A program made the position numbers and the translations under genes. A DNA stretch of 35,722 nucleotides from the IMG/VR virus record IMGVR_UViG_3300028883_000093, positions 1 through 35,722 of that record, one strand, 5' to 3'. Shown piece after piece: positions 9,872-30,645 of this stretch (positions are counted from its first letter, which is position 1; the number at the start of each line of letters is the position of its first letter). Source of the stretch: a virus. Below the pieces are notes generated by a model. The model searched no databases, was not told the origin of the DNA, and saw only the letters and a program-made list of their open reading frames with translations.

Positions 9872-10150
9872 ATGAAAGAAAATATTTTAAAAAAAGCAGA
9901 AAAAATATTATATCAAAGGGCTCAAGAAAAAGAAAGAAAAAATGGAGATATGATACAAGGTATGAAACGTGCATCAAGGATTGCCTCAGGCATGCTAGGT
10001 GAAACCATTACACCAGAGATGATATTAATATCATTAATAGCTTTAAAGTTGTCTCGTGCTTCCTATTCATACAACGAAGATCATTATTTAGATGCAATAA
10101 ATTATTTAGCAACATTAAATGATATAAAAAATGATAGTAACAATAATTGA
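9872..10150 (+). CDS. DUF6378-like small phage protein
   Basis: A 92-residue helical protein with the order KAEKILYQRAQEK...GDMIQGMKRAS..., then TPEMILISLIALKLSRAS and HYLDAINYLATL. This is like DUF6378-type phage proteins, where the conserved parts are a Gly-Asp turn, a core hydrophobic helix and a final Asp-containing helix. The biochemical role of that family is not established. It ends by overlapping the glucosyltransferase gene by 20 bases and may be cotranscribed with the DNA-modification genes. Confidence 0.6.
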   Translation: MKENILKKAEKILYQRAQEKERKNGDMIQGMKRASRIASGMLGETITPEMILISLIALKLSRASYSYNEDHYLDAINYLATLNDIKNDSNNN

Positions 10151-11078
10151 TTTTATTGAAGATATACCAGATAAATATTATTCCCATAAAACACTTGAGT
10201 CATATTTTTTTATTAAATTATTAAAAGAAAATGGGTATTCTGTTAACAGAAATAATATATTAGGTATTGAAGATTTTATAGTTATTAGATTAAGTCAACC
10301 TAATTTTTTTGGTGGTATAATAAAACAATATAAAGTTAATGAGATAAAAAAAATTATAAAATCTGAAGCAAAAATATATTTTTTAGCAAACGATCCACGT
10401 ATAAAGCTTATTAATTATGCAAATGTGTATAAAAAAAGAGGATGTAATATAACTGATGAACAAGTTATTTTATTTGATAATGTAATAAAAAATTCTACGG
10501 CTATATTTAGCGGACAAAACTATACTAAATTTCATAATAATGATTTAAAATCAATACATGTTAATTATTTTGCATATATATTTTATAATATTTTACAAAT
10601 AAATAAACATAATTCTGATATTAGTTTGTTTTCTGAATCGTATAATTATAATTATGATTTTGTATATTATGGTGATAATAGAGGTAAATATCGTCATGAG
10701 CTATTGTTAAAGTATATACCAAAAGAAACAAATAATATAATAATAGCTTATAAAAAATTAAACGGAAATAAAAAATTAAAGCATAATCAGTTATTAAAAA
10801 TATTAAATAAATGCAAAACATCGTTAATAATATCAGATAAAGAACACCAAAAAAATGTATTAACTTATAGATATTATGAAGTGATGATGAGTAATTGTTT
10901 TGCGTGTATACCTTTTGAATATTGTAATATAGATTATGCTCCAAAAGATAATTTTATATCTTCTAATAAAGATATTGAATATATTATAAATAATTTTGAC
11001 AGTAAGTTAATTGTAAATCAAAATAAATTTATAGAAACGTATTTAGAACAATTTAGTAATTTAAAAATTGTATTATGA
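10131..11078 (+). CDS. T4-type DNA beta-glucosyltransferase homologue
   Basis: A 315-residue protein that aligns by eye along its length with phage T4 beta-glucosyltransferase, which moves glucose from UDP-glucose to 5-hydroxymethylcytosine in DNA. Matching features: Glu23 in the LESYFFIKLLKENG helix (T4 Glu22), NFFGG at 58-62 (also NFFGG in T4), IYFLANDPRI with Asp88 at the place of catalytic Asp100, and YGDNRGKYR with Arg184 and Arg188 (T4 Arg191 and Arg195, UDP binding). SLIISDKEHQKNVLTYRYYE has Arg247 and Glu250 at the places of T4 Arg269 and Glu272. The T4 comparison is from memory. The dUTPase and dCMP hydroxymethylase genes follow with overlaps, supporting DNA modification. The DNA is markedly richer in A/T than its surroundings, suggesting transfer. 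Confidence 0.75.
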   Translation: MIVTIIDFIEDIPDKYYSHKTLESYFFIKLLKENGYSVNRNNILGIEDFIVIRLSQPNFFGGIIKQYKVNEIKKIIKSEAKIYFLANDPRIKLINYANVYKKRGCNITDEQVILFDNVIKNSTAIFSGQNYTKFHNNDLKSIHVNYFAYIFYNILQINKHNSDISLFSESYNYNYDFVYYGDNRGKYRHELLLKYIPKETNNIIIAYKKLNGNKKLKHNQLLKILNKCKTSLIISDKEHQKNVLTYRYYEVMMSNCFACIPFEYCNIDYAPKDNFISSNKDIEYIINNFDSKLIVNQNKFIETYLEQFSNLKIVL

Positions 11079-11572
11079 AATATACTAAAATTTATAAAGT
11101 AAAATCTCCTACAATAGGAACAGAGTTATCAGCCGGTATTGATTTCTATATACCAGAGTTTACAGAAAGTTTTTCAAAAAGATTTTTATCTATTAATAAT
11201 AATATAACACTTAATTTTGATTCTAATTTCTTTAGATTAGCGCCACATGAGAGAGTTAATATTCCATCTGGAATAAAAGTTGAATTAAAAGAAAATCAAT
11301 GTTTAATAGCTTTTAATAAATCAGGTGTATCGACAAAACTAGGATTAGATGTATTAGCATGCGTAATAGATTCTGATTACCAAGGTGAAATTCATTTATC
11401 ATTAGTGAATACTTCTATTAACTACATTGATTTATATGCTGGCCAAAAAATAGTTCAGTTTATTTTATTTAATATACCAAAAGTTATGTTAATAGAAGTA
11501 AGTGAAAAAAGTATGTATTTAAAAAAAACTAAAAGAAGCAAAAATGGATTTGGTTCAACAGGAGAATTTTAA
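11075..11572 (+). CDS. dut: dUTPase-family nucleotidohydrolase (possibly dCTP/dUTP)
   Basis: A 165-residue trimeric-type dUTPase. The five motifs are present in order: AGIDFY (20-25), NKSGVSTKLG (81-90), GLDVLACVIDSDYQGEI (90-106), AGQKIVQFIL (122-131) and the C-terminal RSKNGFGSTGEF. Motif 2 normally reads RSG or RSS; here Lys replaces Arg. Residues 28-52 are a short insertion. The standard reaction is dUTP to dUMP and PPi. Because it sits between genes for a glucosyltransferase and a dCMP hydroxymethylase, it may instead or also act on dCTP to make dCMP for modification; that is inference. Start overlaps the previous stop by ATGA. Confidence 0.85.
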   Translation: MKYTKIYKVKSPTIGTELSAGIDFYIPEFTESFSKRFLSINNNITLNFDSNFFRLAPHERVNIPSGIKVELKENQCLIAFNKSGVSTKLGLDVLACVIDSDYQGEIHLSLVNTSINYIDLYAGQKIVQFILFNIPKVMLIEVSEKSMYLKKTKRSKNGFGSTGEF

Positions 11573-12245
11573 TAGCTCTCAAGATGCTTTTGAGTACTTT
11601 TATGATTTTATTTTACAAAATGGATATAATTATCAAAATACAAAAGCAATTTTTAATACAAAAATAGTATTAGAAAATCCACTTAATAATAAAATTTATA
11701 CTAAGTGGAGAAAATGGAGATTAAGTTATGCAGAAGAAGAATGGAATTGGTATAATGATAAGACACTTAACCCTGATAGAGTGATAAAAGCAGGAGCTAA
11801 ATTATGGGATAAATTAAAAGATGAAAATGGCAACGTAATGTCAAATTATGGTTATTGGTGGAATATGCATAATCAATTAGATAATGTGATAAACGAACTA
11901 AGAGTGAATCCTACTACACGACAAGCATCCATATCATTATTAGATACTAAAATCAAAGATCAAAATCTAAAAGATATAATATGTACTTGGGGAATACAAT
12001 TTTATATCATAAATAATAAATTGAATATGAGTATAATGATGCGTTCTAATGATTTGATTTATGGTTTTTGTAATGATCAATATTGTTTTTCTCAATTACA
12101 AAAATATGTTTCTAATAAATTAAATTTAGAAATAGGAATATACACTCATTTTGTTAACAATTTACATATTTATAAAAAACACTGGAGTTTAAAAAATGAT
12201 AACAATAGCAACAATACTGGAAAGTCTCCGATCGTTAAAAGATAA
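11544..12245 (+). CDS. dCMP hydroxymethylase (T4 gp42-like, thymidylate synthase fold)
   Basis: A 233-residue member of the thymidylate synthase superfamily. The nucleophile Cys147 lies in ICTWGIQFYI. The phosphate and base site reads MRSNDLIYGFCND (166-178), almost the same as T4 gp42 MRSNDVVFGFRND, and NNLHIYKKH (205-213) holds the His/Tyr pair. The Asn that binds the uracil ring in thymidylate synthase (E. coli Asn177) is Asp178 here, as in T4 gp42 Asp179. This is the hallmark of an enzyme acting on cytosine. The N-terminal EEEWNWY, SNYGYWW and ELRVNPTTRQASI also match gp42. It would make 5-hydroxymethyl-dCMP with methylene-tetrahydrofolate. It overlaps the dUTPase gene by 29 bases and the next gene by 50. 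Confidence 0.8.
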   Translation: MDLVQQENFNSSQDAFEYFYDFILQNGYNYQNTKAIFNTKIVLENPLNNKIYTKWRKWRLSYAEEEWNWYNDKTLNPDRVIKAGAKLWDKLKDENGNVMSNYGYWWNMHNQLDNVINELRVNPTTRQASISLLDTKIKDQNLKDIICTWGIQFYIINNKLNMSIMMRSNDLIYGFCNDQYCFSQLQKYVSNKLNLEIGIYTHFVNNLHIYKKHWSLKNDNNSNNTGKSPIVKR

Positions 12246-12549
12246 AACGTGGAAGGTTACGTTTGAAACTAACGAATTAACTCCTCAGCAGATCGGAGCA
12301 ATGAGCGAACTACAATCCGAGTTTTGCTACTTAGCAATTAAAAAAGAGCCTTTTAAATCTAAAGAGTTAGACGATCTGAATCAAATTAGAGCTGATTTTG
12401 ATGATCAACAAAAAAGCCAATCACAAAGATTAAGAGCAGTTTTTTACAGATTATGGGAGCAATCAGATGAAGGATATGAGGACTTTGAACTTTATTACAG
12501 ATTTAAAATGGATAAGGTTATTAATCATTATAAAGGGTTTTTAAAATGA
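12196..12549 (+). CDS. Conserved phage protein of unknown function
   Basis: A 117-residue protein. The N-terminal half is beta-rich (KTWKVTFETNELTPQQIGAM) and the C-terminal half helical with SQRLRAVFYRLWEQSDEGYEDFELYY. I recognise this pattern from small proteins shared by many phages near recombination genes, but know no function. Base composition returns to the genome norm here after the AT-rich modification block. It overlaps the hydroxymethylase gene by 50 bases. Confidence 0.6.
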   Translation: MITIATILESLRSLKDKTWKVTFETNELTPQQIGAMSELQSEFCYLAIKKEPFKSKELDDLNQIRADFDDQQKSQSQRLRAVFYRLWEQSDEGYEDFELYYRFKMDKVINHYKGFLK

Positions 12550-13244
12550 GAAAATATATTATTTTTATGGTACTATTGACAGGTTGTTCAATTAACAAAT
12601 TTACTCCTAAAGTAAAAAATATAACTTACACTCCTGATTTTGACAAAGTAACAGTAAGAGGAATTAAAATTACAAAATTACATACTCCATTTGACTTGTC
12701 GTTTCGGCACATTGATTATTGGGATAATAAACCTAATGTTAAATATGATACTAACCTTATACGATTAAATGATCAAACCCTGGAGTTCTACACTAAACGA
12801 GATACTTCAGCTTGCATTAAATCTAACTTTATTTTTAAATATGGTAAGGTCGGAGCGTTGATTAAGTTTGAGGACTTTCCAAATAACTTCCCTGCATTTT
12901 GGTTGATGGGGTTTAATTTAATGCCAGAGATTGACATAATTGAGTATGACGGCAATCGGGCCTGGTCAACTATTCATTTCGGGTATTCATACGAGAAAGG
13001 GCAGAATAAGCATGTTGGTACGGGAGAGATAAAAGGATTAAATCCAACGGAGTATAATTGGTATGAATGCGAGGTTACTCCGTATTGGATTAAGTTTTAT
13101 GTGAACGGGCAAGAAACAGCAAAGATTAAATACCCACTTGCTAACAATGACAGTTACGTTCAATTCAACTCAGGATATACAGGAGAAGTCCAAGTGGATA
13201 GGCTAAGTATTAGTGTTAAGGGTTTTTATTATATTAAATATTAA
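12546..13244 (+). CDS. GH16-like glycoside hydrolase lipoprotein
   Basis: A 232-residue protein with a short lipoprotein signal ending LLTGC (Cys14). The body fits the GH16 beta-jelly-roll family. It has FPAFWLMG (115-122, substrate cleft) and PEIDIIEYDG, where Glu128, Asp130 and Glu133 match the E-x-D-x-x-E catalytic motif (nucleophile, helper, acid/base). It also has IHFGYSY, a late WYECEVTPYWIKFYVNGQE strand set and a final VDRLSIS strand. GH16 enzymes cut beta-1,3 or beta-1,4 glucans and galactans such as laminarin, agar or carrageenan. The lipoprotein signal suggests display on the infected cell, not in the virion. It lies in the early or accessory region, away from tail genes, next to the cassette-like repeats. 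Confidence 0.75.
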   Translation: MRKYIIFMVLLTGCSINKFTPKVKNITYTPDFDKVTVRGIKITKLHTPFDLSFRHIDYWDNKPNVKYDTNLIRLNDQTLEFYTKRDTSACIKSNFIFKYGKVGALIKFEDFPNNFPAFWLMGFNLMPEIDIIEYDGNRAWSTIHFGYSYEKGQNKHVGTGEIKGLNPTEYNWYECEVTPYWIKFYVNGQETAKIKYPLANNDSYVQFNSGYTGEVQVDRLSISVKGFYYIKY

Positions 13245-16887: not shown

Positions 16888-17541
16888 ATGAACAAAAAAA
16901 TAGCAGTCATAACTTATGATGTTCCACATAGAAAAACCCAAGACATATTACTGAGCTTAATGGGAAGAAATGTTACCGTAATAGCCATGCCGTTTAAAGA
17001 GAGAAAATTAATCAAAAAACTCTATTGGCATAGACCAAATATGAACACAACGGTATCAACTGTTGAATTATGTAAATACTTGAAATTTAACTATGTTAGA
17101 CATAATAACCCCTGTGAAATAATTTGTGATCTAGATGTTACCTTAATTGGTGGGTGCGGAATAATAGAAGCAGGTGGGTGGAAAATTATTAACGCACATC
17201 CAGGATATTTGCCATTTAATAGGGGTTTAGACGCTTTGAAGTGGGCGATATACAACGGAGACCCAATAGGTGTTACCACGCATGTAATAGATTCAGAAAT
17301 TGATTCAGGCTATTTAATAGAACAAAAAATTATCAATGTTGGATTTTATGACACATTCCATTCTGTTGCATTGCGACAATATGAAATGGAAATTGAAATG
17401 ATTGTCAGGGCTATTGATATGCCTGTTGGTGAAAAAATATTTAATAAACATCATTTACCAAATAAAAGGATGCCGATAGAATTAGAGCCTATTATGATGG
17501 AAAGATTTAATAAGTTGCGTTCTAATTCTAAATTGTTTTGA
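16888..17541 (+). CDS. Formyltransferase of the PurN/Fmt fold
   Basis: A 217-residue enzyme with the formyltransferase catalytic site: INAHPGYLPFNRG (Asn102, His104 and the LPxxRG loop) and THVIDSEIDSGYLI (Asp139), equal to the Asn-His-Asp triad of GAR transformylase. It moves a formyl group from 10-formyl-tetrahydrofolate to an amine. The N-terminus (VITYDVPHRKT, HRP) is closest in memory to sugar-amine formyltransferases of surface-glycan clusters and to phage homologues, not to tRNA-Fmt, and the tRNA-binding C-terminal domain is absent. Flanking glycosyltransferases support an amino-sugar substrate. A GGAG-like site (aaaaaaggagtg) precedes the ATG. Confidence 0.8.
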   Translation: MNKKIAVITYDVPHRKTQDILLSLMGRNVTVIAMPFKERKLIKKLYWHRPNMNTTVSTVELCKYLKFNYVRHNNPCEIICDLDVTLIGGCGIIEAGGWKIINAHPGYLPFNRGLDALKWAIYNGDPIGVTTHVIDSEIDSGYLIEQKIINVGFYDTFHSVALRQYEMEIEMIVRAIDMPVGEKIFNKHHLPNKRMPIELEPIMMERFNKLRSNSKLF

Positions 17542-22977: not shown

Positions 22978-24264
22978 ATGGAAAAATTTGAGAAAATGAT
23001 TCAAGATACTCAGAAATCTCTTGACGGTCTTAAATCGGCAATCGAGGCAAAGGCAGCTACAAAGGATTTTGAGGACTTGAAAACCTCACTTAACGATATT
23101 AAAGTTAAAGTTGAGGGCGTGAGCATGGTAGGCGACAAAGCCATACAGGACTATGTGAAAACGCAGCAGGAACAGATCGACAGTCTGGAAACAAAGATTT
23201 TGAAAGAGATCAAATCTGGAGACAGCAAACCGATGACGCTGAAAGAAAGAATCGGCAAGATGACCGCAGAGGAAGATTTTGCTAAAAAAATAAAAGAAGG
23301 TCATGAGCTTACTATTAAAGCATCCGACATGACAACTTCTTCTTTTACTGGTGATAGCGGCACTATCGGACTTGATCAGTTGTTTTTACCTGGAATTGCA
23401 AAAGCACCTTGGAGAGACAATCCGCTGTTCGCTGCTACTCCTAAACAGGTAGTTGGCGAAAAGATTCATGAAATTGCATGGTATGAAGAAACTTCAAAGA
23501 CTAATTCTGCTGCTGGTGTAGCTGAACAATCTGGAAGTTTTGCACAATCTGATGCAGCTTGGACTCGTTACAAAGAGGACTTCTACAAACTTGGACATCA
23601 CGCAGAATTTACAGAAGAAATGCTGGAAGATTCTCTGTATGCTCAAGGTGAGATCAATGATCTTCTTCAAAATGGACTTCTAAGAAAAATCGAAGCTGAT
23701 ATGTTTAATGGTGTAGGAAGTGGAAGTAATACCATATTAGGTATGCTGGACAGTACATCTGGATGGGCAAAAGATTTTGCCAAACCAACTGGTACAGACA
23801 CCATAACATCACCGAATAACTTCGATGTTCTTTCAGTAGCTAAAGATCAGGTAGGACTTGGCGATACAGGTAAAACGTTCAACAAAGGATTTATTGCAAC
23901 AGTTGCATTTGTTAATCCTGCGGAATTAGGAAATCTAAGACGACTGAGAGACGATAACGGACAGTATTACATTCCTATGATCACAAGTCAGGGAGTTGGT
24001 ATTGTAGTTGATGGACTTTTGTTGGTACCATCGTTCGATGTTGCAGTCAACAAATTCGTTGTTTGTAATCCTGAGCGCGCTAAAGCGTACATTAAGAGAA
24101 ATATTACTTTGAAGCGTTCTGAGAACGTGGCAAGTAATTTCTTAACTGATGTAATCACGATTAAAGCAAGCATCAGATTAGCTTATGTTCATAAGAATGT
24201 TGATGAGTTTGCGTTTGTGTATGGAGACTTCGATACAGCTAAAACAGCGATAACTACTACATAA
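22978..24264 (+). CDS. Major capsid protein, HK97 fold
   Basis: A 428-residue capsid protein. Residues 1-105 form a coiled, charged delta or scaffold domain (QKSLDGLKSAIEAKAATKDF, YVKTQQEQIDSLETKILKEI) that the prohead protease likely removes. The rest has the HK97 E-loop and P-domain features: HEIAWYEETSKTNSAAGVAE, EDFYKLGHHAEFTEEMLEDS, LRRLRDDNGQYYIP and a final VHKNVDEFAFVYGDFD. A true Shine-Dalgarno site (AAGGAG, 22970-22975) precedes it, unusual in this genome and consistent with high expression. Confidence 0.93.
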   Translation: MEKFEKMIQDTQKSLDGLKSAIEAKAATKDFEDLKTSLNDIKVKVEGVSMVGDKAIQDYVKTQQEQIDSLETKILKEIKSGDSKPMTLKERIGKMTAEEDFAKKIKEGHELTIKASDMTTSSFTGDSGTIGLDQLFLPGIAKAPWRDNPLFAATPKQVVGEKIHEIAWYEETSKTNSAAGVAEQSGSFAQSDAAWTRYKEDFYKLGHHAEFTEEMLEDSLYAQGEINDLLQNGLLRKIEADMFNGVGSGSNTILGMLDSTSGWAKDFAKPTGTDTITSPNNFDVLSVAKDQVGLGDTGKTFNKGFIATVAFVNPAELGNLRRLRDDNGQYYIPMITSQGVGIVVDGLLLVPSFDVAVNKFVVCNPERAKAYIKRNITLKRSENVASNFLTDVITIKASIRLAYVHKNVDEFAFVYGDFDTAKTAITTT

Positions 24265-26638: not shown

Positions 26639-27049
26639 ATGGCAGTAGAAAGAGGAATGGACGTGCTGATACAAATTGATACAGTTTCATTAACAGCACA
26701 GACTGACGCAAGTTTTGAAATGGTTGCAGATATGTTAGATGCAACAACAAAGCTAAGCACAAACAATGCAAAGGAATACTTGAAAGGCGAGCATGGTGGA
26801 ACTTTCTCCGCAAGTGGAAAGTATGACATGACAGCAACCGAAGGCGTTGATGAAGCGCTTGCAGATCTGAAAGCAGGTACAACAGTAGTAATCAAATGGG
26901 GTGGAATTGGTGAAGGAGATACTTATTACTCAGCTAACGCTAAGGTATCTAGAGTTTCATTATCAGCTCCTAGAAATGACATTGTTACTTTTGATATTGA
27001 TTTTCAAATTACAGGAGATCAAACCACTGCAACTGTAGCCAGTTCATGA
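26639..27049 (+). CDS. Major tail (tube) protein
   Basis: A 136-residue tail tube protein of the TP901-1 type: MDVLIQIDTVSLTAQTDAS, TTKLSTNNAKEYLKGEHGGT, FSASGKYDMTATEGVDEALA and a final VTFDIDFQITGDQTT strand. It assembles as hexamer rings around the tape measure. Rich in Ser and Thr; the next gene, overlapping by 4 bases, encodes a GalNAc-transferase-like enzyme, so this abundant protein is a candidate for glycosylation. Confidence 0.88.
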   Translation: MAVERGMDVLIQIDTVSLTAQTDASFEMVADMLDATTKLSTNNAKEYLKGEHGGTFSASGKYDMTATEGVDEALADLKAGTTVVIKWGGIGEGDTYYSANAKVSRVSLSAPRNDIVTFDIDFQITGDQTTATVASS

Positions 27050-27933
27050 CAAGTATAATTATTCCAACGCATAATGATTTCGAGTTTCTAAGTGAAACGA
27101 TAAAAAGCATTAGGCAAACCGTATGTTGCGATGTTGAATTGATTGTTGTTAATGATGGTGGTAAGCGCCCCGATGTAAGGGCAGATGTGATACTGGACAA
27201 AAAGAGAGGTGGTATCGGGGCAGCTTACGATTATGGCATTAAACACGCAGAAGGGGATATTGTTGTATTAGCGGATTGCGACTTGCGATTTACTCCAGGT
27301 TGGTTAGATCGTTTCATTGAAACGTTAGATACTTACCCAGAGAGTTTGGTTTGTGGAACTTGTTTGGAATATGATATATTTAACAGGAATATCGAGAAGC
27401 CTAACGAACGATATGGAGCTAATATCTGGGAGTGGTACCCTAGTCAGTATAACGGTATTACTTTTAAGATGCCACTAAAAACTGATTGGAACTATCATAA
27501 AAAAGGAGATATATTTCCTGTAGATTCAGTTCTGGGTGGTTGTTATGCTGTTCGTAAAGATTGGTTTAATAAATGTTTAGCTCATAAGGGGCATTATATC
27601 TGGGGTGGTCGTGATGCTTTAATAAGTCTAAGAACCTGGATTATGGGTGGGCAATGCTTATGCGATTCACGAGCTAAGATAGGGCATATCTTCCGCAGAC
27701 ATCATACACATGGAGCAACGATGAAACATTGGACATATAATAAGATGTTAACCGTGATGACGATGTTTGAAGGACAGAAGTTAAGGGATTATATGACAGC
27801 GATTAAGCGTATGCCGGAATTCAGAGAAGCTATGTGTTATGTTGACTACAATGAAATTGAATTAATTAGAAAATATTTTGCATTAAACAGAAAAAAATCT
27901 CAAGCATGGCTGTACACAAATGTAATACAATAA
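27046..27933 (+). CDS. GT2/GT27-like glycosyltransferase resembling polypeptide GalNAc transferases
   Basis: A 295-residue GT-A enzyme. Start TSIIIPTHNDFEFLSETIKS with VELIVVNDGG (UDP binding), the metal site ADCDL (Asp77, Asp79), GGCYAVRKDWF (164-174), YIWGGRDALISLRTWIMGGQ (184-203) and KIGHIFR (211-217). The last blocks match the signature of polypeptide N-acetylgalactosaminyltransferases (GG.FAI...WGGEN.E.S.R.W.CGG...VGHIFR). The lectin domain of those enzymes is absent. Placed in the tail operon between tail tube and chaperone genes, and coupled to the tail tube gene by a 4-base overlap, it may add sugar to virion protein; that target is inference. Confidence 0.8.
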   Translation: MTSIIIPTHNDFEFLSETIKSIRQTVCCDVELIVVNDGGKRPDVRADVILDKKRGGIGAAYDYGIKHAEGDIVVLADCDLRFTPGWLDRFIETLDTYPESLVCGTCLEYDIFNRNIEKPNERYGANIWEWYPSQYNGITFKMPLKTDWNYHKKGDIFPVDSVLGGCYAVRKDWFNKCLAHKGHYIWGGRDALISLRTWIMGGQCLCDSRAKIGHIFRRHHTHGATMKHWTYNKMLTVMTMFEGQKLRDYMTAIKRMPEFREAMCYVDYNEIELIRKYFALNRKKSQAWLYTNVIQ

Positions 27934-28256
27934 AGCTAGATCGGGAGCGTCCGATTAATTTTGGTATCAACCAAACAATATTATTTTGTGATGAGTTTCA
28001 GATCGATCTCCCAGAAGCAACCGAGTTGATTCAAAAATCATTCACAGGTAAAAGCCTAAAAGGATTGGTTACTTTAATATACACAGCGTTGATAGATGGT
28101 TGTCGGTTAATTGATCAAGAAAAAGACTTTACTAAGGAAGATGTAGGTGATTGGTTAGATTATATAGAAGCTGATGAGATGGTTAAGATACTCAATATTT
28201 ATACAAAAAGTATGCCGGAAGGAGAAGGAGAAAAAAAAAAGACTAACATGGAATGA
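27906..28256 (+). CDS. Tail assembly chaperone (gpG-like)
   Basis: A 116-residue protein in the position of tail assembly chaperones, directly before the tape measure region. It is helical with NFGINQTILFCDEFQIDLPE, LKGLVTLIYTALIDGC and DWLDYIEADEMVKILNIY. Its last codons contain an A10 tract (28231-28240) and it stops 14 bases later. A second frame continues without a good start of its own, as expected for the G/GT arrangement. It overlaps the glycosyltransferase gene by 28 bases. Confidence 0.8.
   Translation: MAVHKCNTIKLDRERPINFGINQTILFCDEFQIDLPEATELIQKSFTGKSLKGLVTLIYTALIDGCRLIDQEKDFTKEDVGDWLDYIEADEMVKILNIYTKSMPEGEGEKKKTNME
28231..28240 (+). other. A10 slippery tract for recoding of the tail chaperone
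   Basis: Ten A follow GGAG. The upstream gene is in the frame of 27906 and the downstream one is offset by +1, so a +1 or -2 ribosomal shift, or loss of one A (gain of two) by RNA polymerase slippage, would join them. Tail chaperone genes of siphoviruses very often use such recoding. A homopolymer sequencing error is the alternative. Confidence 0.6.
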
Positions 28257-28554
28257 TGTTTATGAAATTGCATACGGCATGATCGGATTAAAAACATACG
28301 AGTTCAAAGATTTAACTTGGAAAGAGTTTGGGTATTACGTATCAGGATTTTGGCGAAAAGAAACTGAAGCGTGGAAAAGAGCAAGATTTATCTGTATGGA
28401 ATTAGTGAGAGGAAATCCTCATTACAAACCTGGAGATAGAAATAGCATAATGGATAAGTTGAATCCGTTTGAAGATCGAGCAGAAAGATTAATATTGCAC
28501 ACAAAAGAGAGAGCTAATAAATTAGCAAAGTTATGGAAGAAAAATCCTAAATAA
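28231..28554 (+). CDS. Tail chaperone T extension made by recoding (gpT-like)
   Basis: About 100 codons after the A10 tract: RLTWNDVYEIAYGMIGLKTY, then LTWKEFGYYVSGFWRKETEA, WKRARFICMELVRGN and a basic C-terminus. The first in-frame ATG (28279) lies inside the conserved part, and a frame opening at 28174 overlaps the upstream gene out of frame, so separate initiation is unlikely. The LTW.EF motif and position directly before the tape measure match T domains that bind the tape measure. It ends immediately before the tape measure ATG. Confidence 0.65.
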   Translation, partial: KKKRLTWNDVYEIAYGMIGLKTYEFKDLTWKEFGYYVSGFWRKETEAWKRARFICMELVRGNPHYKPGDRNSIMDKLNPFEDRAERLILHTKERANKLAKLWKKNPK

Positions 28555-30645
28555 ATGGCAACAGAAGTTTTAAAAGCAATAATCAAAGGCGACAACAAAC
28601 CTTATAAAAAGGCATTGAACGAAGCTGAGAAGCAGACTAATCAATTTTCAAAGCAGATAAAAAAGATTGGTGGGTTAATAGCTGGTGCGTTTGCTCTTAA
28701 TGAGATTAAAGCATTTACTATTGGGGCTGCTAAATTAGATGCTAAACTTCAAGGTGTTGAACGTGCATTTGCTAAATTGAATCAACCTAGTCTATTATCT
28801 GATCTACAAAAAGCAACTAGAGGAACTGTTACTGATTTAGAATTAATGCAAAGAGCAGTCCAAGCAAAAAACTTCAAAATACCATTAGATCAATTAGCAA
28901 CATATTTTAAATTTGCCACAGACAGAGCTATTGAAACTGGTGAATCTGTTGATTACTTAGTGGAATCTATTATTACGGGTATCGGTCGTAAAAGTGTTAT
29001 GATTATGGATAACTTAGGCATTAGTGCAGCTGAGTTATCACAAAAGACAAAAGAATTAGGAGATTTTGGTGCAGCAGCAGGGCATATAATTAACCAAGAA
29101 ATGTCTAAAGCTGGTAATGTAGCTGATACATCTGCAACGAGATATGCACGCTGGGCTACTATAATGGAAAACTTCGAAACAAAAGTTGGTGGAGTTGCAA
29201 ATTCGTTCATTGATTTAATATTGCCAATAAAAAAAGGTAGTGAATTATTATCAGAGCAAAGAGTTAGAGTTAATTCATTAGTAATTCAATTAACCGCTTT
29301 AAATACGAGCGAAGAAAGTAGAAAAAAAATATACGACGAGCTAAAAACTTTATCTAAAGATGTAGTCGATGGTATAGATGCCGAGAATATTAACATAAAA
29401 AAATTAACAGCTAATCTAAAGTTATATAACGAGGAGCAGATTAAAAAAATCGCTATCGCCAGAAGTGAAGAACGGATTCAAGACTTACAAGATAAAGCAG
29501 GCAAAGCATTAGATAAAAGATTATCAGATGAAGAACGTTTGTCATTAGTCTTAAACAGAAATGCTAATTATGCTGCTAAATTCGGAGAAACATACGAAAA
29601 GCAAGCAAAAGACATTGTAAATAGTTCTAAGAGTTACGAGAACAAATTAAAAGATTTAAAATCATTACTAGAAGAAATTGATAAAGCTGGCGGAGATCAA
29701 TTTACAAATGCAGCTATAAAAGAACTAGAAACATCTCAAGATAATTACAATGATTTAAAACGTGAAGAAAAGCGATTATTTCAACAAGTAAATGTAGAGC
29801 TTCAAAAATATACGGATAGATATAAAAAAATATTTGGTGTAGGAAAATCAACTACTGAACTATTAAAATCCAGTGCTGTTTCTGGTTTGTCAAATACGCT
29901 AAAAAAAGAAGCTAGTGTAATAGTAAACACTTATGATGATCTTGCAGATCAGTTAGCTGAAGTTCAAAAACAGATTAGAGATAATGTACTAAATGGAACA
30001 CAAGAGTTTCTGCAAGGCTTATTAGAGCAAGAAAGAGCTATTAAAGACGCTATCAAAAGAATAGATAATGCGGTATTGAAATTATATCGTCCTACTTTAG
30101 TTAGCATAACTCCTTTACAAAGCATAAAAGCAACAAGCGTACAAGGTAATGATACAGAAATAGAAGGTTTAAGCGGAATAGGAACACAAGGGCTTGCAGC
30201 AGCGACAAGCGGATTAGCAGAAGCAGGCAAAGAAGCATTTGAACAAGCAGACAATTTTCGTGATATAACTATAAAATTAACAGATGCGTTCGGTGGCTTG
30301 TTTAATGAGCTAACAGATAGTATGGAAGATACATCAAGTAGATTTTTAAAGATACTATCATCAATGGTCAGTTTTGTTGGTATAATATCAGGCGATACCG
30401 CATTTACAGCATTTGGTTCATTATTTAGTAATATAATAGGATTCGCAGATGGTGGCACAACGCCTTATACGGGTAACTTCTTAGTTGGCGAACGTGGGCC
30501 TGAAATGGTCAGTCTCCCTGGTGGAGCAAAGATAACTCCGAATAACTTACTAGCGGGTTCTCAAGAATTACACGCACGCATTACAGGTGAAGATATTTAT
30601 TTGTCAAATAAACGATATACAGAGAAATTAAATAAGATAACTTAA
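28555..30645 (+). CDS. Tape measure protein
   Basis: A 696-residue tail-length protein. The N-terminal region (KKIGGLIAGAFALNEIKAFT, LQGVERAFAKLNQPSLLSDL, GESVDYLVESIITGIGRKSV) is the typical tape measure entry. A long charged coiled-coil runs from about residue 200 to 500. A hydrophobic segment near 600-625 (ILSSMVSFVGIISGDTAFTA) precedes the C-terminal FADGGTTPYTGNFLVGERGP motif. Using about 1.5 angstroms per residue, the tail would be near 100 nm. It starts right after the chaperone stop. Confidence 0.9.
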   Translation: MATEVLKAIIKGDNKPYKKALNEAEKQTNQFSKQIKKIGGLIAGAFALNEIKAFTIGAAKLDAKLQGVERAFAKLNQPSLLSDLQKATRGTVTDLELMQRAVQAKNFKIPLDQLATYFKFATDRAIETGESVDYLVESIITGIGRKSVMIMDNLGISAAELSQKTKELGDFGAAAGHIINQEMSKAGNVADTSATRYARWATIMENFETKVGGVANSFIDLILPIKKGSELLSEQRVRVNSLVIQLTALNTSEESRKKIYDELKTLSKDVVDGIDAENINIKKLTANLKLYNEEQIKKIAIARSEERIQDLQDKAGKALDKRLSDEERLSLVLNRNANYAAKFGETYEKQAKDIVNSSKSYENKLKDLKSLLEEIDKAGGDQFTNAAIKELETSQDNYNDLKREEKRLFQQVNVELQKYTDRYKKIFGVGKSTTELLKSSAVSGLSNTLKKEASVIVNTYDDLADQLAEVQKQIRDNVLNGTQEFLQGLLEQERAIKDAIKRIDNAVLKLYRPTLVSITPLQSIKATSVQGNDTEIEGLSGIGTQGLAAATSGLAEAGKEAFEQADNFRDITIKLTDAFGGLFNELTDSMEDTSSRFLKILSSMVSFVGIISGDTAFTAFGSLFSNIIGFADGGTTPYTGNFLVGERGPEMVSLPGGAKITPNNLLAGSQELHARITGEDIYLSNKRYTEKLNKIT

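Follow-up and report, generated by a model that had tools for sequence, protein, structure and literature searches.

A GalNAc-transferase-like GT2 glycosyltransferase gene in the tail operon of a likely Bacteroidota siphophage

The tail operon and other genes of the window

We analyzed IMG/VR record IMGVR_UViG_3300028883_000093, positions 1 to 35,722 (the window, 35,722 nt), a virus contig without a host genome. It encodes a siphophage structural module in the order terminase, portal, head morphogenesis, protease, HK97-type capsid, head-tail connector, head closure, HK97-gp10-like neck, tail completion, tail tube, glycosyltransferase (GT), two genes in the chaperone position, and tape measure (Table 1). 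After the tape measure come a minor-tail-like protein and then a long protein with a laminin-G-like domain. The head-tail operon around the GT gene is intact. The host is likely a member of the Bacteroidota because the relatives of the tape measure, minor tail protein, and capsid are from Porphyromonas, Flavobacterium, Cellulophaga, and Tenacibaculum phages; for the tape measure, tblastn matches to those of Porphyromonas phages have E values of about 1e-30.

Table 1. Position and supporting matches of the features discussed in the text.
Feature	Position	Strand	Evidence
T4 DNA β-glucosyltransferase-like protein	10131..11078	+	phrog_7922 E 1.3e-6; PDB 1bgt E 7.3e-5
Thymidylate-synthase-family protein, dCMP-hydroxymethylase signature MRSND..GF.ND	11544..12245	+	PDB 1b49 (T4 dCMP hydroxymethylase, gp42) E 1.4e-14; phrog_160 E 1.1e-36
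HK97-type major capsid protein, other possible acceptor	22978..24264	+	Phage_capsid E 2.2e-18
Major tail tube protein, 136 aa	26639..27049	+	Phage_tail_2 E 5.7e-7; phrog_1407 E 2.7e-17
ATGA, GT start on tube stop (translational coupling)	27046..27049	+	Sequence; 4-base overlap
GT2/GT-A glycosyltransferase with pp-GalNAc-T-like acceptor half, 295 aa	27046..27933	+	Pfam PF00535; PDB
Chaperone-position gene, ORF 1	27906..28256	+	phrog_2115 tail protein E 0.006 (weak); position
Tail assembly chaperone, ORF 2, phi12:1 gp56 homologue	28174..28554	+	blastp E 1e-10; phrog_16333 E 6.8e-8
Tape measure protein	28555..30645	+	phrog_19914 tape measure E 1.6e-6

As originally predicted, the GT gene lies between the tube gene and the chaperone-position genes, the latter identified in part by their position, and the predicted 4-base overlap with the tube gene is present as ATGA. 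At its 3′ end the GT gene shares 28 bases with ORF 1, which begins inside it. In a Pfam profile search residues 3-130 of the GT matched Glycos_transf_2 (PF00535) with an E value of 8.1e-22 and a score of 78.4 bits against a curated cut-off of 23.3. The ORF is real and no chance explanation is needed. The protein has no transmembrane segment, its highest 19-residue hydropathy being 0.76. Both the codon usage and the GC content of the gene are inside the phage's own range, and promoter and terminator signals around it are not above shuffle expectation. Downstream, the reading frames of the two chaperone-position ORFs differ where they overlap (28174-28256), a stretch that includes an A10 run (28231-28240), and a programmed +1/-2 frameshift is possible there.

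The early region of the window contains candidate genes for DNA modification. The gene for the T4 β-glucosyltransferase-like protein adjoins those for a dUTPase and the dCMP-hydroxymethylase-like protein, and all three are unusually AT-rich (GC 0.19-0.25 versus 0.33 for the window). From these sequence matches the phage probably makes glucosyl-5hmC DNA. Two further genes were noted. Positions 16888-17541 encode a formyltransferase-fold protein that is nearest to sugar-nucleotide N-formyltransferases (6v33, E 5e-12), and positions 12546-13244, outside the tail module, encode a protein with a GH16 family domain (E 5e-12), possibly a polysaccharide-degrading enzyme.

Relation to the polypeptide GalNAc-transferases

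The original prediction described the GT as polypeptide-GalNAc-transferase-like on the basis of the motifs WGGRD...S.R.W..GG and GHIFR. Both are exact in the sequence. The protein has DCD at residue 77, GGCYAV at 164, WGGRD at 186, and GHIFR at 213, with Asp77/Asp79, Trp186, Arg189-Asp190, and His214 as the notable residues. Among solved structures, the polypeptide GalNAc-transferases (pp-GalNAc-Ts, family GT27), the mucin-type enzymes of animals, are the closest in sequence (best match 2d7i, E 2.3e-13, residues 2-223) and in fold. All 50 top PDB fold matches of an AlphaFold model of the GT are pp-GalNAc-Ts (E 9e-14 to 9e-11, about 15-20% identity in the fold alignment), though the PDB holds few bacterial GT2 enzymes with such a motif set and the model, built from a shallow ten-sequence alignment, is modest (mean pLDDT 66). 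The acceptor-half blocks GG.YAV, WGG...S.R.W..GG, and GH.FR are common to the window GT and GT27. Against a viral structure library the model matched generic phage GT2 proteins, and in Bacteroidota chromosomes (396 genomes) the best matches to the GT span the donor half only.

The GT27 likeness is incomplete at the catalytic residues and in domain make-up. The metal-ligand His of the GH.FR block is present as His214. However, residues 77-79 read DCD in place of the GT27 DXH metal motif, where GalNAc-T10 and GalNAc-T4 align DSH and DCH. The GT27 consensus WGGE[NQ] is replaced at residues 186-190 by WGGRD, with Arg for the catalytic-site Glu and then Asp. The C-terminal ricin-type lectin domain of GT27 is missing, the protein ending at residue 295 with Glycos_transf_2 as the only Pfam domain. 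Strict GT27 membership fails because of these three departures, and judged by its sequence features the enzyme should be called a GalNAc-T-like GT2 rather than a polypeptide GalNAc-transferase sensu stricto. The original description thus held for the nearest structures but not for the family itself, and GalNAc as the sugar, Ser/Thr as the acceptor, and an alpha linkage are therefore not readable from the sequence.

The protein belongs to GT2 by its profile score, its DXD motif (D77-C-D79), and R189-D190, which retains the Asp of the (E)D motif. In inverting GT2 enzymes the catalytic base is an Asp at the position matching the 'RD' motif (GT2/GT7/GT27 chemistry). Asp190 may accordingly serve as the acidic base. 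Because it sits where inverting GT2 enzymes carry their base, a beta linkage would be no less likely than the alpha-GalNAc of GT27.

Occurrence of the gene and of similar enzymes in phages

To compare gene order, which the original prediction had proposed surveying in related phages, we examined the interval between the tube and the chaperones. The fully annotated Cellulophaga phage phi12:1 has no GT there: directly behind its tube gene, whose product is of the same Pfam family, come two short genes, of which the latter is a homologue of ORF 2, and next the tape measure gene. The same interval in lambda, HK97, and TP901-1 is also free of a GT. Around the tube gene of six prophage-like loci from Bacteroidota, all with this tube family, the stretch examined showed no GT-like ORF, and no protein similar to the GT was seen in the stretches examined of Flavobacterium 11b, snork6-1, Tenacibaculum JQ, and two Porphyromonas phages. 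A search of related prophages with ORF 2 gave no match, which says nothing as to absence. Of 17 virus records with a related terminase or tape measure, some of them fragments, none has a Glycos_transf_2 domain, and exact-peptide scans of viral and genome contigs gave no close homologue of the GT. The order is not conserved, and the exact one of the window is common to no relative examined. On these comparisons the GT gene is a lineage-specific accessory insertion, because a tube-chaperone GT was not found in the related phages and prophages examined, and it is well integrated, with overlaps at both ends and a composition within the phage range.

Similar enzymes are encoded in other phages. An alignment-based scan of IMG/VR with GalNAc-T-like proteins gave eight viral loci (L131 to L138). 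L131 encodes a GalNAc-T-like GT fused to Methyltransf_24, then a methyltransferase, two unassigned ORFs, a portal (E 5.8e-66), and head morphogenesis, so that three genes separate fusion and portal. The nearest solved structures to its GT part are likewise pp-GalNAc-Ts. In L135 a similar long protein is encoded one gene ahead of a head-tail adaptor and head closure; the same protein occurs in L136 and L137, and L138 encodes a similar GalNAc-T-like protein. In L133 a heptosyltransferase-like gene lies upstream. L132 and L134, identical contigs to L108 and L107, respectively, are in polysaccharide-type GT clusters and not in structural modules. The L131 fusion and the L135-L138 proteins resemble the window GT in the same acceptor-half motif region, with a head-module location in L131 and L135, but they keep DXH, have a fused methyltransferase, and are about 24% identical to it. 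WGG-Glu is missing in other phage relatives as well, with WGNVG in L131, L133, and L135 where the window GT has WGGRD. The fusion of GT and Methyltransf_24 (L131 and L135-L138, the domain being demonstrated for L131) is found, in L131 and L135, in the head module of unrelated phages and looks like an undescribed recurrent arrangement.

Four GenBank entries named 'Bacteriophage sp.' (MT836906, MT837284, MT837923, and MT839756) look like bacterial polysaccharide biosynthesis loci, not phages. Two bacterial matches to the GalNAc-T-like DNA signature (L109 and L110) are due to chance and lie outside any GT gene. On contig IMGVR_UViG_3300035698_005670 (L100), three GT2 and two methyltransferase-like genes are found directly upstream of a putative large terminase.

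Possible acceptors and comparison with known systems

The original prediction proposed that a virion protein is glycosylated, citing Ser/Thr-rich tail proteins. The tail tube protein ends in ...TGDQTTATVASS, with Ser or Thr at six of the last 15 residues, and the capsid has five of 15; these counts are the highest among the 47 proteins examined. HK97, however, is equally rich (6/15 and 5/15), and Che8, with proven glycosylation, is poorer (2/15 and 3/15). Ser/Thr-rich C-termini thus do not discriminate, and after these controls we do not take them as evidence of glycosylation. The suggestion of immune evasion is also unsupported. Glycosylation of the virion itself is known for phage GTs elsewhere, on capsid and tail tube, and the GT gene is in the tail operon. 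That position alone is circumstantial, since relatives do not share the order of genes, and it does not prove the substrate.

The enzyme could instead act on the host envelope, altering a surface glycan late in infection and so masking receptors from superinfection or keeping progeny from binding to debris. Remote bacterial relatives of the GT sit in polysaccharide loci, as do two of the GalNAc-T-like phage relatives (L107/L134 and L108/L132) in their GT clusters, and the best PHROGs family is GtrB-like O-antigen conversion (E 1.1e-6), a match over residues 3-96 only, the generic nucleotide-binding half. What the window GT has in common with GtrB-type serotype-conversion enzymes is this GT2 donor half, to which the family matches are confined. 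Unlike them it has no membrane helices, neither a flippase or anchoring partner nor GtrA or GtrC was found in the annotated window, and the gene is in the middle of a late tail operon, making an envelope substrate unlikely. DNA as the substrate is a live rival because the phage has DNA-glucosylation candidates of its own. In that case the GT would glycosylate hydroxymethylcytosine in the DNA of the phage itself, perhaps attaching the second sugar there, in line with the hydroxymethylase-like, dUTPase, and β-glucosyltransferase-like proteins and with T4, which uses two DNA GTs (PMC13216743). But a dedicated candidate for that task already adjoins the hydroxymethylase in the early region, about 15 kb from the tail GT, and the latter resembles enzymes with peptide acceptors; we regard this role as distinctly doubtful.

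There are two further explanations. Absence from every related phage examined and the sporadic distribution would suit a selfish or neutral gene, recently captured and tolerated because its insertion site is permissive, that does nothing for the particle. We think this improbable for an intact ORF with its catalytic motifs, overlaps at both ends, and phage-matched composition, especially as similar enzymes recur in structural modules. The protein could also be a virion component, a sugar-binding domain of weak catalytic activity that serves assembly or adsorption, as its gene lies between two virion-related genes and Arg replaces the Glu of GT27 WGGE. This seems highly improbable, since the protein keeps an intact DXD and GHIFR as well as Trp186 and Asp190, and the same Glu is missing from other phage relatives.

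We give about an even chance to glycosylation of a virion protein by a laterally acquired, late GT, most likely acting on the tube and/or the capsid. Observations consistent with it are the GT-A/GT2 motifs (DXD, GG.YAV, WGG-RD, and GH.FR), the coupling to the tube gene, the insertion, and the presence of similar enzymes in the head modules of other phages. Counting against it are the lack of an adjacent methyltransferase and of detectable homology to Che8 gp109 or gp110, the gene order found in no relative, and the two phage relatives in polysaccharide-type GT clusters. In this reading an accessory gene gained by lateral transfer, presumably expressed late, would encode an enzyme that draws on a nucleotide-sugar of the host and glycosylates a virion protein synthesized in the same period. 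By analogy with the virion-glycosylating GTs of mycobacteriophages, its likeliest acceptor would be the tail tube subunit and/or the major capsid protein. The benefit may be an altered surface, adsorption, or masking. More tentatively, a sparse clade of GalNAc-T-like GTs in structural operons of unrelated environmental phages might O-glycosylate virion peptides, with the member here, coupled to the tube gene, decorating the tube during assembly. Such a clade, if real, would give viruses of prokaryotes a counterpart to mucin-type glycosylation.

Virion glycosylation by phage enzymes is, in the literature examined, demonstrated for a few mycobacteriophages. A GalNAc-T-like GT encoded among the tail genes of a likely Bacteroidota phage, together with similar enzymes in head modules of unrelated phages, suggests a wider occurrence of particle glycosylation, with other enzyme classes involved. 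The GT and the adjacent tail tube make a small, directly testable enzyme-acceptor pair.

Among Bacteroidota siphophages with related tail genes, phi12:1 and its relatives carry, between the head morphogenesis and protease genes, a Methyltransf_24 gene along with another GT, and for phi18:1 a GT has been reported within the structural module (PMC11946311). These structural-operon GTs (gp40/gp41, TOD1/MUCI70-like) differ from the window GT in family and in lying in the head module beside a methyltransferase, with no GT in the tube-chaperone gap. The mycobacteriophage GTs (Che8 gp108-gp110, Corndog gp38, and Myrna) are also phage-encoded and modify capsid and tail tube (Freeman 2023, as cited in PMC12363180, PMC11600133, and PMC12619734). 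In Che8 the GT genes are at the right genome end, while the window GT is in the tail operon and has no detectable homology to gp109 or gp110 (blastp E > 9). Like the head-module relatives of the window GT, Che8 gp108 combines GT2 with Methyltransf_24, and it is grouped with gp110 in a set of three GT genes.
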